IMG/VR virus record: IMGVR_UViG_3300028388_001457
Location: 14,402-48,520 of that record
Strand: one strand, 5' to 3'
Length of the DNA stretch: 34,119 nt
Source: a virus
Part shown: positions 6,346-26,254 of the stretch, piece by piece
How positions within the stretch are numbered: the stretch's first letter is position 1
Layout: each line of letters begins with the position of its first letter
Notes under the pieces: generated by a model
Database searches by the model: none
Told to the model about the DNA's origin: nothing
The model's input: the letters and a program-made list of their open reading frames with translations, nothing else
Made by a program: the position numbers and the translations under genes

Positions 6346-6921
6346 ATGTCTAAAAGAAACTATGTCAACAACGCAGAGTTCTTAGCTTCGATTGTGAAGT
6401 ATAAAGAAGCCTGTGATGAGGCAGAGAATTGCGGTGATGATGCACCAAGAATTCCCAACTATATTGGTGAGTGCCTATATCAGATCGCGAATCGTCTAGC
6501 TACCAAGCCAAACTTCTCTGGTTACACATATAAAGAAGAGATGGTGAGTGATGGTTTAGAGAATGCGATTCAGGCACTCGGTAACTTTAATCCAGAGAAG
6601 TCGAGTAATCCCTTTGCTTATTTCACACAAATTATTTGGTTTGCTTTCTTGCGCAGGATTGAGAAAGAGAAAAAACAAGTTTACATTCGCCATAAAGTGA
6701 TCGAAAATTCTGTCGTCACAGGTACGGCTGTAGAGAAAGAAAGTGGAGAAAGTGGAGAACCAAACTATATTGATTTAAATAATGACTATATGAATGATTT
6801 TGTTTCAAACTATGAGAAAAGAATTGAAACGAAACGCAAGAAAAGTGAAACGAAAAGTGAAAAAAGTGAAACGAAAAAAGGTTTGGAGAAATTTATAGAT
6901 GAAGATCGCAGTAATCAATGA
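6346..6921 (+). CDS. 55: Late transcription sigma factor (T4 gp55-like)
   Basis: Replaces host sigma and directs RNA polymerase to TATAAATA late promoters, with activation through the gp45 clamp. The protein has 191 residues (T4: 185). Sigma region 2-like features: NYIGECLYQIANRLATKPNFSGYTYKEEMVSDGLENAIQ-type helices, then NFNPEKSSNPFAYFTQIIWFAFLRRIEKEKK, matching sigma region 2.3-2.4. The C-terminus is a Lys/Ser/Glu/Thr repeat linker followed by GLEKFI, which could be the hydrophobic clamp-binding tail known for T4 gp55; that last point is inference. Its 3' end overlaps gene 47 by 23 bases. AGAGGA precedes ATG 6346. Confidence 0.95.
   Translation: MSKRNYVNNAEFLASIVKYKEACDEAENCGDDAPRIPNYIGECLYQIANRLATKPNFSGYTYKEEMVSDGLENAIQALGNFNPEKSSNPFAYFTQIIWFAFLRRIEKEKKQVYIRHKVIENSVVTGTAVEKESGESGEPNYIDLNNDYMNDFVSNYEKRIETKRKKSETKSEKSETKKGLEKFIDEDRSNQ
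6841..6873 (+). repeat. Short tandem repeats in the gene 55 linker
   Basis: AAAAGTGAAACG occurs at 6841-6852, is repeated in short form at 6853-6860 and again with one extra A at 6861-6873. It encodes K-S-E-T-K-S-E-K-S-E-T-K in the linker between the sigma domain and the C-terminal tail. A related GAAAGTGGA duplication lies upstream near 6740. The pattern suggests slippage-driven length variation. Confidence 0.8.
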
Positions 6922-20568: not shown

Positions 20569-23064
20569 ATGACATTTTATACCTGCGTAAATCGTTTTGG
20601 TAAGAATATTCTATATCGTGGTTATGATAGCAACGGTAATAGAATACACAGAAAAGTTCCTTTCAAACCTACGCTTTTCTTACCTTCAAAAAAACCAAAC
20701 ACTACTTGGAAAGCACTTGACGGCACACCTGTCGAAGCGATGCAACTTGAGAGCATGGCAGAGGCTAAAGAGTTTGTTGCTCGATATCAAGATGTTGACA
20801 ACTTCACAGTTCACGGCAACACAAATTATGTTGCTCAGTTTATCCAAGAACAGTTTCCTGGCACAATTAAGTTCAATAGCAAGTTTATCGATCTTGGTAA
20901 CATTGATATCGAAGTTGCGTCAGATGATGGTTTTCCATATCCAGAACAAGCCAATCATCCAATCATTTCTATTGCATATAAGAGTAGTCGCGAAGGCATC
21001 TATCACGTGTGGGGTCTAGGCGACTACTCTGTTGCAGATTCAGAACTGAATCTCAATGGAGAACTCATCCAGTATCGCAAATGTGCTAATGAGCGAGAGT
21101 TGATTGAGAAGTTCATGCTGTTTTGGCAAATGAATACACCAGATATCATTACTGGTTGGAACATTCGTCTCTTTGATATTCCTTACATGATTAATCGCAT
21201 TCTAAAAGTCTGTGGTGAGAAGACTGCAAAGATGTTCTCTCCCTGGGGCATTTATAACTATCGCCAAGTTCGTATGAAGTTCAAAAGCCTTGATGCATAT
21301 GACATCTATGGTGTACAACAGATGGACTATATTGACTTATTTCAGAAGTTTGGTTATACATATGGTAACCAAGAATCGTATGCACTTGATCATATCGCGA
21401 GCGTGATTCTAGGTGAAAAGAAACTCTCGTATGATGAGTATGGTTCGCTTCACACACTATACAAACACAATCATCAGAAATTCATTGACTATAATATTCG
21501 AGATGTTGATCTTGTTCGCCGTATTGATGATGAAACTGGTTTGATGGACTTGGCCTTAACAATTGCATACAAGGGCGGTGTGAACTACAACGACACATTT
21601 GGCACAACTGCGATATGGGATTGCATCATCTATCGCTATCTGTCTGAACGTAATATTGCTATACCACCAAATGTTAAAAAACATAAAGATCCATATGAAG
21701 GTGGTTATGTCAAAGATCCAAAAGTTGGCATGACAGAGTGGATTACCTCGTTCGACTTAAACTCTCTGTATCCAAATTTGATTGTTCAGTACAATATGTC
21801 GCCTGAAACTCTTGTTTCAGATGTGAAACTTGATTCTGGTGTTGAACATTATCTCAATTGTGATTCACCAGTCGAGTCTGAATATTCTGTAGCCGCAAAT
21901 GGTAGTTGCTATCGTAAAGACAAGCAAGGTTTTATGCCAAAAATTATTATCGATCTGTATGACGAACGCAAAACAACCAAGAAAGAGATGTTGAAGTTAA
22001 AACAACAAGCGCAGTCAAGCACTTCTACAGACCTCAAGAGAACGATCAATAAACTTGATAATACGCAGATGGCAGTAAAGATTTTGTTGAACTCTCTCTA
22101 TGGCGCCCTCGGCAACGCATATTTTCGTTACTTTGAAATGGAGATTGCAGAGGGTATCACATTGTCTGGTCAGTTGTCGATTCGATGGGCTGAGAAGGCA
22201 ATGAACAAAACGCTCAACAAAGTGATGAAGACAGATAAAGACTATGTGATTGCAATTGATACAGATTCTCTGTACGTCGATTTAAGTGATCTTGTCAAAG
22301 CAGTCGATCCAAAAGATCCTGTAAAATTTATTGATAAAGCGGCTGAAGAGAAGTTCGTTCCTGCAATTGCAAAAGCTTATGATGATCTTGCAAAGCAGAT
22401 GAACGTATATGACAACAGAATGGTTATGGCTCGCGAAGCGATTGCCGATCGAGGTGTATGGACTGCAAAGAAGAGATACATATTGAACGTTCACAACAAC
22501 GAAGGTGTTCAGTACGCCGAACCAAAGCTAAAAGTCATGGGCATTGAGGCAGTTAAATCGTCTACTCCTCAAGTCGTTCGAGATAAGTTCAAAGAAGCGT
22601 ATAAAATAATTCTCTCTGGCAAAGAGAGTGAACTTCAAGACTTTGTTGAGAAATTCTACGAAGAGTTTAAGAGTTTGCCGCCAGAGCAAGTGTCTTTTCC
22701 TAGAGGTGTTTCTGAGATTGACAAATGGCATGATCGCAAAACAATCTACAAGAAAGGCACTCCTATTCATGTTCGAGGCGCGCTGATGTACAATAACATG
22801 ATTCAGAAAACTGGCTTAGACAAATCGATGGAATTGATCAAAGATGGTACCAAAGTTAAGTTTTGCTATCTACGCAAGCCAAATCCTATGATGGAAAATG
22901 TCATCTCGTTTACACAATTCTTGCCAAAAGAGTTTGGGTTGGATCAATACATAGACTACGAAATGCAATTCGAAAAGACCTTCAAAGATCCCCTAAAACT
23001 TGTGAGTGATGCTATCAACTGGGATCTTGAAAAACGCAACACAATTATGGACTTTTTCTCTTGA
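20569..23064 (+). CDS. 43: DNA polymerase (T4 gp43-like, family B)
   Basis: Replicative polymerase with 3'-5' proofreading. It has 831 residues (T4: 898). Exonuclease motifs: NIDIEVAS with Asp113/Glu115, GWNIRLFDIPYMINR, and YNIRDVDLVRRID. Polymerase motifs: FDLNSLYPNLI with Asp396, KILLNSLYGALGN (from Lys504) and AIDTDSLYV with Asp564/Asp566. The C-terminal EKRNTIMDFFS resembles the clamp-binding tail of B-family polymerases (T4 ends in ...SLDFLF-like). No intein or intron is visible. The stop codon overlaps the uvsX promoter. Confidence 0.98.
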   Translation: MTFYTCVNRFGKNILYRGYDSNGNRIHRKVPFKPTLFLPSKKPNTTWKALDGTPVEAMQLESMAEAKEFVARYQDVDNFTVHGNTNYVAQFIQEQFPGTIKFNSKFIDLGNIDIEVASDDGFPYPEQANHPIISIAYKSSREGIYHVWGLGDYSVADSELNLNGELIQYRKCANERELIEKFMLFWQMNTPDIITGWNIRLFDIPYMINRILKVCGEKTAKMFSPWGIYNYRQVRMKFKSLDAYDIYGVQQMDYIDLFQKFGYTYGNQESYALDHIASVILGEKKLSYDEYGSLHTLYKHNHQKFIDYNIRDVDLVRRIDDETGLMDLALTIAYKGGVNYNDTFGTTAIWDCIIYRYLSERNIAIPPNVKKHKDPYEGGYVKDPKVGMTEWITSFDLNSLYPNLIVQYNMSPETLVSDVKLDSGVEHYLNCDSPVESEYSVAANGSCYRKDKQGFMPKIIIDLYDERKTTKKEMLKLKQQAQSSTSTDLKRTINKLDNTQMAVKILLNSLYGALGNAYFRYFEMEIAEGITLSGQLSIRWAEKAMNKTLNKVMKTDKDYVIAIDTDSLYVDLSDLVKAVDPKDPVKFIDKAAEEKFVPAIAKAYDDLAKQMNVYDNRMVMAREAIADRGVWTAKKRYILNVHNNEGVQYAEPKLKVMGIEAVKSSTPQVVRDKFKEAYKIILSGKESELQDFVEKFYEEFKSLPPEQVSFPRGVSEIDKWHDRKTIYKKGTPIHVRGALMYNNMIQKTGLDKSMELIKDGTKVKFCYLRKPNPMMENVISFTQFLPKEFGLDQYIDYEMQFEKTFKDPLKLVSDAINWDLEKRNTIMDFFS

Positions 23065-23118: not shown

Positions 23119-24189
23119 ATGTCATTAATGGATAAATTGATTAAGAATAGTTCTATCAAACAAACTGCGCCTATTATGGACTCAAAGGTCTATGGCAAAA
23201 AAGATATGTGTCAAACACAAGTACCTATGATCAATGTTGCACTATCTGGTCGAGTTGACGGTGGCTTAGTGCCTGGCTTGCTTATGCTTGCTGGTCCATC
23301 AAAACACTTTAAATCTGCATTCGCGTTACTTATGGCAGCCTCATATCAAAAGAAATATGACGATGCAGTCATTCTTTTCTATGATTCTGAGTTTGGTACA
23401 CCTCAATCATACTTTGAAAGTTTTGACATTGATCTAGATCGTGTTGTGCATACACCGATCACTGATGTTGAGCAACTTAAGTTCGATATTACAAAGCAGT
23501 TGTCCGAAATCGATAAGAACGACCATGTCGTTATTATAATTGACTCGATTGGTAATTTGGCTTCGAAAAAAGAAGTTGAAGATGCTATGAACGAAAAGAG
23601 TGTGGCCGACATGTCACGAGCAAAACAACTGAAGTCTCTATTTCGTATCGTTACACCACATTTGAATCTTAAAGATATTCCTCTTGTCTGTGTGAATCAC
23701 ACATATAAAGAGATTGGTATGTTTCCGAAAGATATTGTATCTGGTGGTACTGGTTCTTACTATTCAGCAGACGCGATTTGGATTATCGGTCGTCAGCAAG
23801 AGAAAGAAGGCAACGAGATTGCGGGCTATCACTTTGTGATTAATATTGAAAAATCTCGTTACACTCGTGAAAAGAGTAAGATTCCAATTACAGTTACATA
23901 TGAAGGTGGTATCAACAAATGGTCAGGTTTGTTTGATGTCGCTGAAGAACTTGGTTATATTCGTAAGCCAAAAGTTGGTTGGTTTGAAGCTGTGAACATT
24001 GAAACAGGTGAGGTCTTGACAGAGAGCCTCAAACGTGCTAAAGATTTAGCAAACAGCAAAGAGTTTTGGATGATGATGTTTGATAAAACAAATCTTGCAA
24101 AAGACATCAAAAATCGTTATACTATTGCAACTCGAAGCTTAGTTGAGCAAGACACTGAAGAAACTCAAGAGGAAACCCCTGACCAATGA
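23119..24189 (+). CDS. uvsX: UvsX recombinase (RecA-like)
   Basis: Strand-exchange recombinase. It has 356 residues (T4: 391). Walker A GPSKHFKS at 59-66 is the phage variant of the P-loop; LFYDSEFGTP, a Walker B VVIIIDSIGN, and PLVCVNHTYKEIGMFPK with the following GGTGSYYSADAIWII match the L1/L2 region. The C-terminus is acidic (DTEETQEETPDQ), as in RecA. AGAGGAG precedes ATG 23119. Overlaps gene 41 by four bases. Confidence 0.97.
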   Translation: MSLMDKLIKNSSIKQTAPIMDSKVYGKKDMCQTQVPMINVALSGRVDGGLVPGLLMLAGPSKHFKSAFALLMAASYQKKYDDAVILFYDSEFGTPQSYFESFDIDLDRVVHTPITDVEQLKFDITKQLSEIDKNDHVVIIIDSIGNLASKKEVEDAMNEKSVADMSRAKQLKSLFRIVTPHLNLKDIPLVCVNHTYKEIGMFPKDIVSGGTGSYYSADAIWIIGRQQEKEGNEIAGYHFVINIEKSRYTREKSKIPITVTYEGGINKWSGLFDVAEELGYIRKPKVGWFEAVNIETGEVLTESLKRAKDLANSKEFWMMMFDKTNLAKDIKNRYTIATRSLVEQDTEETQEETPDQ

Positions 24190-25583
24190 TCGAAACAACA
24201 ATACTCTCAAACCTACTACACAATGAAGAGTATTCGCGTAAAGTTGTACCATTTCTCAAAGATGAATACTTTGATGATCTCAACGAAAAAATTGTATTCA
24301 AAGAAATTGTTTCTTACATAGACAAATACAATGGGCTTCCTACAAAAGAAGCCTTACGTATTTCTCTTGATGAAAAAGAAAACCTTAACGAAGAACAATA
24401 CAAGCAGATTTTTGATATTGTTTCGTCTTTGAGAGCCGATGATACTGAAATTGATTACCTTGTCGATAAGACTGAAAAGTTCTGTCAAGATAAGGCAATC
24501 TACAATGCAGTGCGCGAATCTATTCTTGTTCTTGATGGTAAACACAAAGCTTTAGAAAAGGGTTCGATACCTGAACTTCTTTCAAAAGCTCTTGGTGTAT
24601 CTTTTGATAGCAGTATAGGTCACGATTTCACAGAAGATGGAGAAGAACGCTATCAATTTTATCACACAAAAGAAGACAAGATTCCTTTTGATCTAGACTT
24701 GCTGAATAAGATTACCAAGGGTGGTCTGTCACGAAAGTCTTTGTCGATTGCACTTGCTGGTACTGGTGTCGGTAAAACTCTTTTCATGACACATAATGCA
24801 AGTGCGAACTTGATGAACGGGCTTAATGTTCTTTATATCACAATGGAAATGGCAGAGGAGCGTATTGCTGAACGCATCGATGCAAATTTGCTTGACTTAA
24901 CAATTGATCAGTTACGTGAGATTCCAAAAGATGTTTACATGAAGCGTCTAGATCGAGTTCGCACAAAAACAACTGGCAAACTGATTGTGAAAGAATATCC
25001 AACAGCATCTGCAGGTTCTGCACATTTTCGCCATCTTTTAAATGAACTGAGACTGAAGCGTAATTTTGAACCAGACATCATTTATATCGACTATCTTAAC
25101 ATTTGTATTAGTTCTCGCCTCAAGTATGGTGCGAACGTGAACTCATATACACTTGTAAAAGCAATTGCAGAAGAGCTACGCGGCCTTGCTGTAGAGTTTA
25201 ATGTTCCTATTGTGTCTGCAACTCAAACAACTCGAACTGGTTATAGTAGTTCTGATTTGGGTTTGGAAGACACCTCAGAATCATTTGGTTTGCCCGCAAC
25301 GGCAGACTTAATGATTGGTTTGATATCAACAGAAGAACTCGAATCTCTGGGTCAGTTGATGGTCAAGCAATTGAAGAACCGTTGGGGTGATACCAATTAC
25401 CTGAAGAGATTTGTAATTGGTATTGATAGATCAAAAATGAGATTGTTTGATGCAGAAGAAAGTGCCCAGACTCTTATCAATGGCGAAGCGCCATCACCTC
25501 AATCAAAGAGTCAAGACGACGATGACGACTTTGGAAATTCACTGAGAAGAAAATCGAAACCTAAATTTGATGGATTTAAATAA
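24186..25583 (+). CDS. 41: Replicative DNA helicase (T4 gp41-like, DnaB family)
   Basis: Hexameric 5'-3' helicase at the replication fork. It has 465 residues (T4: 475). The N-terminal domain (about 1-140) is helical; Walker A GTGVGKT lies at 192-198, followed by YITMEMAEERIAERID, the Walker B DIIYIDYLN and the Q-motif-like VSATQTTRTGYSS. The C-terminus carries DDDDDFG and a basic tail. ATG overlaps the uvsX stop (ATGA), and the stop overlaps the next gene (TAATG). Confidence 0.97.
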   Translation: MIETTILSNLLHNEEYSRKVVPFLKDEYFDDLNEKIVFKEIVSYIDKYNGLPTKEALRISLDEKENLNEEQYKQIFDIVSSLRADDTEIDYLVDKTEKFCQDKAIYNAVRESILVLDGKHKALEKGSIPELLSKALGVSFDSSIGHDFTEDGEERYQFYHTKEDKIPFDLDLLNKITKGGLSRKSLSIALAGTGVGKTLFMTHNASANLMNGLNVLYITMEMAEERIAERIDANLLDLTIDQLREIPKDVYMKRLDRVRTKTTGKLIVKEYPTASAGSAHFRHLLNELRLKRNFEPDIIYIDYLNICISSRLKYGANVNSYTLVKAIAEELRGLAVEFNVPIVSATQTTRTGYSSSDLGLEDTSESFGLPATADLMIGLISTEELESLGQLMVKQLKNRWGDTNYLKRFVIGIDRSKMRLFDAEESAQTLINGEAPSPQSKSQDDDDDFGNSLRRKSKPKFDGFK

Positions 25584-25783
25584 TGAAACAGAATTACTAT
25601 GTTGAAGAGTTTGAAGAATATTACATTGTGGTTGAAAATAGTAGCGATCTTGTGATTGAAAAGTTTCAAGATAAGAGAGAGGCAAGCAGATATTGTAGAA
25701 ATCTCAATTTGGGGTTTGGATTCGAAGGATCTACTCCTCTATTCATGTCACTTGGAATTAACCCAATAAAAAAGGCGCCCTAA
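25583..25783 (+). CDS. Small hypothetical protein downstream of gene 41
   Basis: A 66-residue protein coupled to gene 41 by TAATG. It opens MKQNYYVEEFEEYYIVVENSS and continues with EKFQDKREASRYCRNLNLGFGFEG, resembling a short strand-helix 'DKREA...YCRxLN' module seen in small phage proteins that handle no known substrate. No catalytic motif is seen. Its last codons form one arm of a hairpin that reads better as a terminator for the opposite strand. Confidence 0.75.
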   Translation: MKQNYYVEEFEEYYIVVENSSDLVIEKFQDKREASRYCRNLNLGFGFEGSTPLFMSLGINPIKKAP

Positions 25784-25793
25784 AGCACCTTTT
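25768..25793 (-). terminator. Intrinsic terminator on the minus strand
   Basis: Read on the minus strand: AAAAGGTGC, loop TTTAGG, GCGCCTTTT then TT. A 9-bp stem in which the single non-Watson-Crick pair is U-G; on the + strand the same position is a C-A mismatch, so the minus-strand RNA is the better terminator. It may still work weakly for gene 25583-25783. Confidence 0.6.
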
Positions 25794-25925
25794 CTATAAG
25801 TGATACGTGGCAGAACCGAACCCCACGGACATCTTTACGATGTGACATCTGCTATTCCAACTGTCGAAAAAATTATTTAATCTCAACGCTTGCCTCTTAC
25901 GTTTTAAACGTACTAACACGCACCC
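25768..25925 (-). ncRNA. Candidate minus-strand structured small RNA, tRNA-reminiscent
   Basis: Predicted about 158-nt RNA from a minus-strand TATAAATA box to the minus-strand terminator. Hairpins visible: TACGTT/AACGTA (25898-25912), GTTGA/TCGAC with a U-G pair, ACATC/GATGT with loop GTAAA (25829-25843), and CGTGG/CCACG (25806-25827). Two segments resemble tRNA arms: CAGTTGGAATAGC (D-arm-like) and GGTTCGGTTC (T-arm-like), but I could not find matching acceptor arms or a 7-base anticodon loop, so it is not an ordinary tRNA. All neighbouring protein genes lie on the other strand. The interval 25784-26047 is otherwise empty. Confidence 0.4.
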
Positions 25926-25930
25926 GATCT

Positions 25931-25938
25931 TATTTATA
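25931..25938 (-). promoter_or_regulatory. T4-type late promoter on the minus strand
   Basis: TATTTATA on the + strand, i.e. exact TATAAATA on the minus strand. Predicted start near 25925, running leftward. It is the only minus-strand late box I noticed in an intergenic region. Confidence 0.5.
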
Positions 25939-25988: not shown

Positions 25989-26024
25989 TTGACAAAGCTT
26001 TACTTCTACTATATGATATAAATA
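25989..26024 (+). promoter_or_regulatory. Overlapping sigma-70 and late promoter
   Basis: TTGACA at 25989-25994, 17 bp, TATGAT at 26012-26017; an exact TATAAATA runs on from its last base at 26017-26024. Long A and T tracts at 25960-25987 could be an UP element. The start codon at 26048 is 24 bases beyond the late box. Confidence 0.8.
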
Positions 26025-26047: not shown

Positions 26048-26254
26048 ATGTATCAGAGAGACGTATACCAACTAATCGAAGAAGCACTCAACGAAGCAAT
26101 GATTTTAGAGAGTGCGCACGACAAATATGATGAGTCGCATATGTTAAAGACTGCACAGCGTTTATCAGGTGCGCCATTTGTATCAGTACAAAGCGTTTTC
26201 ATGGAAAAGCGTGGTTTCACAAAGTCTTTTAGTGACTTTGCTGATGCCGTGTAG
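26048..26254 (+). CDS. Small hypothetical protein
   Basis: A 68-residue protein: MYQRDVYQLIEEALNEAMILESAHDKYDE, then a Lys/Arg-containing second half (MLKTAQRLSGAPFVSVQSVFMEKRGFTKSF). No family recognised. TAGGAG precedes ATG 26048, and the gene is bracketed by a strong promoter pair and a terminator, so it forms its own transcription unit. This isolation and the dual promoter suggest it is needed in quantity or at several stages. Confidence 0.75.
   Translation: MYQRDVYQLIEEALNEAMILESAHDKYDESHMLKTAQRLSGAPFVSVQSVFMEKRGFTKSFSDFADAV

Follow-up and report, generated by a model that had tools for sequence, protein, structure and literature searches.

The DNA analysed here, referred to as the window, is a stretch of 34,119 nucleotides from a 48.5-kb IMG/VR virus record. 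Its genes for DNA polymerase, UvsX and gp41, together with a gp55 homologue, identify the source as a T4-like phage. The gp41 gene, which encodes a DnaB-like replicative helicase (24186–25583, + strand; phrog_19, E 1e-121), is followed by an ORF of 66 amino acids (25583–25783, +). Beyond these lies a predicted RNA gene on the minus strand (25766–25938), in which a structured core of ∼125 nt lies between a T4-type late promoter box, matched exactly, and an intrinsic terminator.

The first-pass annotation had proposed that a promoter, a structured body and a terminator line up here as a discrete late RNA gene on the minus strand. The promoter box that it named, TATAAATA, is an exact match at 25931–25938 (−). 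Ten such boxes occur in the window where 1.64 were expected; the other nine are all on the plus strand. At the other end of the unit, a hairpin followed by a U-run (25766–25797, −) extends into the final codons of the 66-aa ORF, which is convergent with it. This hairpin had been judged a better terminator in the minus-strand RNA, and the predicted energies agree, at −16.4 kcal/mol (z −5.4) for the minus-strand RNA versus −8.5 kcal/mol for the plus-strand RNA. The hairpin at 25766–25797 was not among the terminators reported by a simple consensus scan. The predicted reader of the box, a homologue of the late sigma factor gp55, is encoded at 6346–6921 (+): T4 gp55 matched positions 20750–21109 of the record (window 6349–6708) with an E value of 2.9e-22 and 39% identity. 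Homologues were also found in two other contigs that carry the RNA.

Elsewhere in the window, a near-perfect sigma-70 promoter (TTGACA-17-TATGAT) at 25989–26024 runs into a TATAAATA box ahead of a 68-aa ORF at 26048, so that early and late promoters may overlap at this site.

For the 163 nt below the box, folding gave −45.7 kcal/mol on the minus strand (z −2.26) and −28.8 kcal/mol on the plus strand (z −1.77), so that the single-sequence fold is only moderately better than chance. The structured core is an end-to-end match of covariance model R1 (25800–25926, −; 107.4 bits, E 3e-24), with R1 having been built partly from the window copy itself; the next-best R1 match in the window scored 9.9 bits.

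The consensus fold is a four-way junction closed by helix P1. Reading along the minus strand, the 5′ strand of P1 (25917–25924, pairing with 25802–25809) is followed by the P2 hairpin (25898–25912; 25908–25912 with 25898–25902), the conserved unpaired joining segment J2/3, AGAGGCAAG (25889–25897), and the P3 hairpin (25863–25887; 25881–25887 with 25863–25869 in the MFE fold). The second conserved unpaired joining segment, J3/4, is GGAAUA (25853–25858); in the family this motif extends to GGAAUA(G), of which the last base begins P4. The P4 arm (25810–25852; 25848–25852 with 25810–25814) contains the optional helix P4a (25839–25843 with 25829–25833) and the P5 hairpin (25816–25828), CCG-UGGGGUU-CGG, with a heptaloop at 25819–25825. 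The chain then returns to the 3′ strand of P1 (25802–25809), which in this copy, as in most others, abuts P4 without a linker.

Relatives were collected in three ways. A scan with the gp41 protein yielded 80 loci, several with a recognisable copy in the gap and others with the same motifs on the opposite strand. A context-free pattern of three motifs then picked out at least 119 viral-contig stretches. With two variant patterns there were 54 further matches, and 43 of the 53 tested passed the covariance model; nearly all of these 43 adjoin a gene of the gp41 neighbourhood, and the other 10 fail in both model and context. In all, the same RNA is present on more than 150 IMG/VR contigs, and in more than 100 phage contigs matched mutations preserve its fold. 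The carriers form a large group of aquatic, T4-like phages that are uncultured.

The first alignment, of 20 close copies, was made with MAFFT without reference to structure and contained six helices. Covariance models R1 and R2 were then used to align 57 and 85 copies. For the 78 distinct rows, 94.4% of paired cells can pair, a level reached in none of 500 shuffles, and compensatory double changes are seen in 31 of 31 consensus pairs (537 such cells); since the R1 and R2 alignments are fitted to the structure, these counts lean towards it. The structure-free alignment of the first 20 copies gives the same covariation picture. When the register was slid, pairing fell to 29–47%. The 18 column pairs with the highest mutual information are all pairs of the structure, and outside the helices mutual information revealed no covariation beyond transitive signals that would indicate a tertiary pairing or pseudoknot.

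The support extends to each helix. Compensatory changes occur in all eight pairs of P1 and all five of P2, and changes on both sides in all five family pairs of P3. P4 is paired in 99.6% of cells and P4a, which is missing from about half of the family, in 99.4%, with double changes in all pairs; the stem of P5 covaries as well. Comparison of the gap among relatives could have spoken against an RNA gene, by showing either no conservation or no covariation. Instead, the gap is conserved and the covariation exceeds what composition and register controls produce, as expected of a structured non-coding RNA family.

These alignments also bear on the strand. G-U pairs occupy 175 cells and A-C combinations only 7; therefore, the RNA strand is the minus strand, as had been proposed. 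This asymmetry is sensible only for an RNA of one strand, and it weighs heavily against a DNA-level element such as an origin or recombination site, for which the constant place in the replication gene cluster could otherwise be cited. A chance structure would be equally hard to reconcile with covariation so far above that of the shuffles, and we regard either reading as scarcely credible.

A divergent subgroup (L034, L065, L082 and L249–L270) has GAGGCACAG or a similar sequence in place of GAGGCAAG, and often a TAAATA core rather than the full TATAAATA box.

An exact TATAAATA box lies just upstream of the RNA in 64 of 76 distinct copies, and a TAAATA core is found 35–70 nt before the first motif in 75 of 76, compared with 2 of 76 for the opposite-strand control. 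The distance from the end of the box to the first modelled P1 pair is typically 6–14 nt. Given the spacing of T4 late transcription starts, the predicted start therefore falls at or near the 5′ end of P1. A run of five Ts follows within 110 nt downstream in 72 of 76 distinct copies. The unit thus resembles a T4-type late transcription unit, with its box at a conserved distance from the start of the RNA and gp55 encoded by the phage, and the RNA is apparently switched on late in infection.

We next considered the position of the RNA relative to its neighbours. In 121 of 130 loci it adjoins gp41, and of these 69 share the strand of gp41 and 52 have the RNA on the other strand; among the remaining nine, several are copies near contig ends. 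In a tree of gp41, a quick tree with some long branches, all 29 opposite-strand rows group in a single clade with strong support and the same-strand rows elsewhere, which amounts to a single change of orientation among the RNA-bearing rows. Presence of the RNA requires seven changes on the same tree, but at least two of the rows scored as lacking it cannot be counted as real absences, since L065 gives a match to the model and L008 ends soon after gp41.

An RNA that is nearly always beside gp41, and that in the window converges on the gp41 operon, might be a cis element, which would control gp41 by antisense or form its 3′ end, or would serve the next gene as leader or riboswitch. However, two large clades differ in how the RNA is oriented to both gp41 and the next gene, and its own promoter and terminator set it apart from both neighbours. 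An antisense or leader role for the neighbouring genes was rejected on account of the variable orientation, and a cis element in general is highly improbable. Because the RNA keeps a fixed place in either orientation, with its own promoter and terminator, its product would act in trans.

The 66-aa ORF between gp41 and the RNA belongs to a family of small proteins with the signature LNxGxGFxGxTPxFF, which follow gp41 in many aquatic T4-like contigs whether or not the RNA is there. A partnership between the RNA and this ORF was rejected on those grounds. One member of the protein family had no match when searched against named phages, and the window protein had none in PHROGs.

Taken together, the kept position, the covariation, the strand asymmetry and the gp55 homologue support a discrete late RNA gene on the minus strand, with its transcription being predicted. 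The original observation holds and is stronger than was claimed. On these comparative grounds, the locus is almost certainly a real, free-standing gene for a late trans-acting RNA.

What such an RNA might do is suggested by its unpaired bases. The near-invariant segments are AGAGGCAAG, identical in 74 of 78 distinct copies, GGAAUAG, and the UGGGGUU loop, identical in all 78, an invariance that is partly by construction as most copies were found via those motifs. In the relatives found via gp41 alone (L003, L007, L009–L012, L014, L017, L034, L065 and L082), the motifs are kept with few changes. Because these invariant bases and the invariant loop are carried on covarying stems, the pattern suggests recognition by a conserved partner.

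We propose the following sequence of events. RNA polymerase with the phage gp55-type sigma would initiate at or near the 5′ end of P1 late in infection and halt at the terminator hairpin, giving a stable RNA of ∼130–160 nt. The stems would hold AGAGGCAAG, GGAAUAG and UGGGGUU unpaired in a fixed geometry, and these segments would capture a specific partner, most likely a host or phage protein or ribonucleoprotein, which would be modulated or sequestered during the late phase. That capture works by shape and unpaired bases, not by simple antisense pairing, is a reading towards which we lean only slightly. The broader claim, of an RNA gene with partner capture as its leading putative form, is very probable.

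The closest competitor is a classical trans-acting antisense sRNA, in which the UGGGGUU loop or a joining segment would seed on host or phage mRNAs and the U-rich tail would bind a chaperone such as Hfq. A free-standing gene with a terminator U-run fits this picture, and a fully conserved loop could serve as the seed. Yet conservation extends beyond the loop to the elaborate junction. At predicted phage translation starts in the window and in two RNA-bearing contigs of 164 and 91 kb there was no enrichment for complements of the three segments, in a weak test confined to phage genes and with few sites expected. We consider an antisense sRNA possible but distinctly less likely than partner capture.

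The compactness of the junction and its invariant unpaired bases would also suit a catalytic RNA of the self-cleaving type, or an RNA used in the virion or in packaging, with which late expression would presumably coincide. Since no Rfam ribozyme or packaging family matched and the RNA has no tie to terminase genes, such a role seems improbable. Equally improbable is a mimic of the translation machinery, in which a tRNA-like four-way core would present the P5 heptaloop as an imitation of the 23S P-loop and bind the CCA ends of tRNAs. The abutting P4 and P1 are reminiscent of T and acceptor stems, and the Escherichia coli 23S gene (L248) contains GAC-UGGGGCG-GUC at 2246–2258, with a heptaloop (2249–2255) that begins with UGGGG as does that of P5. 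We take this 23S heptaloop to be the P-loop, which pairs with the CCA of tRNA. The likeness is short and post hoc, with UGGGG occurring six times in that 23S gene, and neither ARAGORN nor the Rfam tRNA and rRNA models gave a match; the loop resemblance serves as a lead only. The fuller form of the idea, a new class of phage RNA acting late on the host translation machinery, with a UGGGGUU hairpin that imitates the ribosomal P-loop and holds tRNA ends, is a very unlikely extension of that analogy.

One RNA-bearing contig of 164 kb (G001; L227–L235) has a translation gene set that is large for a phage, with 28 predicted tRNAs and a tmRNA of the permuted type (tag ANDNSPIEMRLAA).

The RNA seems to be restricted to phages. 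When 257 Gb of prokaryote genomes were searched with the same motif pattern, there were five matches, all chance-like and unstructured, and none fitted the model. Among named phages, R1 and R2 found nothing convincing in 15 whole records, the best scores being chance-like (S-SM2, 17.4 bits; T4, 16.9 bits; P-SSM2, 14.8 bits), and four representatives searched by blastn produced either no match or short ones attributable to chance. By model search, Melnitz and the cyanophages tested are without the RNA.

That a large uncultured T4-like clade keeps a conserved RNA with its own predicted transcription unit among its replication genes implies an important late function borne by RNA, not by protein. 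The family is missing from Rfam 15, and the covariance model offers a precise means of finding it in any virome or metatranscriptome. It also poses a testable question, namely which host or phage factor is bound by a late phage RNA.

How the RNA compares with known RNAs was examined for several classes. It had been called tRNA-reminiscent, and this stands only loosely, in so far as a tRNA also has a four-way junction in which the closing stem abuts the 3′-most arm without a linker. In its arms, its loops and its conserved bases it differs from a tRNA. There is no anticodon, D or T loop, the 3′-most arm branches, and the 3′ end is formed by a terminator rather than CCA. A seven-base anticodon loop and a T loop are absent from the cloverleaf positions, with UGGGGUU lying on the P4 branch and the loops of P2 and P3 being variable. 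The segment described as D-arm-like, CAGTTGGAATAGC, instead runs from the end of P3 through the conserved GGAAUA into the start of P4, and the T-arm-like segment, GGTTCGGTTC, takes in the conserved UGGGGUU loop together with the 3′ strands of both P5 and P4. The accompanying statement that no standard tRNA could be folded was correct: ARAGORN found no tRNA or tmRNA, and tRNA covariance models did not match. For the window and 13 relatives, no Rfam 15 family matched at gathering thresholds, and loose-threshold matches were far below gathering.

RNA C and RNA D of T4 (stable RNA species 1 and 2, annotated at 139 and 119 nt) are small stable RNAs of a T4-like phage. They lie in the T4 tRNA cluster, whereas the RNA described here has its own late promoter box beside gp41. 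The best R2 match over the whole T4 genome was that of 16.9 bits, at 58 kb, with none at 70.9–71.2 kb, which gives no sign of homology to RNA C or D. CfrI of cyanophage S-PM2 is another non-coding RNA of a marine T4-like phage; in the passage of PMC12197685 that cites Millard 2010 it is described as antisense to psbA, whereas the orientation switch found here argues against an RNA antisense to its neighbour.

Further precedents in kind are the orphan structured RNAs of marine and phage origin, manA, wcaG, PhotoRC-II, GOLLD and ROOL, which were recognised by comparative genomics and covariation; T4-like phages are the source of several (PMC2864571, PMC12286853). The manA and wcaG RNAs are set apart by being described as in 5′ UTRs, and GOLLD and ROOL by a far greater size; the RNA described here has no Rfam match. 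We found no description of the present RNA in the openly licensed literature. Therefore, although orphan structured phage RNAs are known as a general kind, this RNA family and its predicted late, independently transcribed architecture appear to be new.
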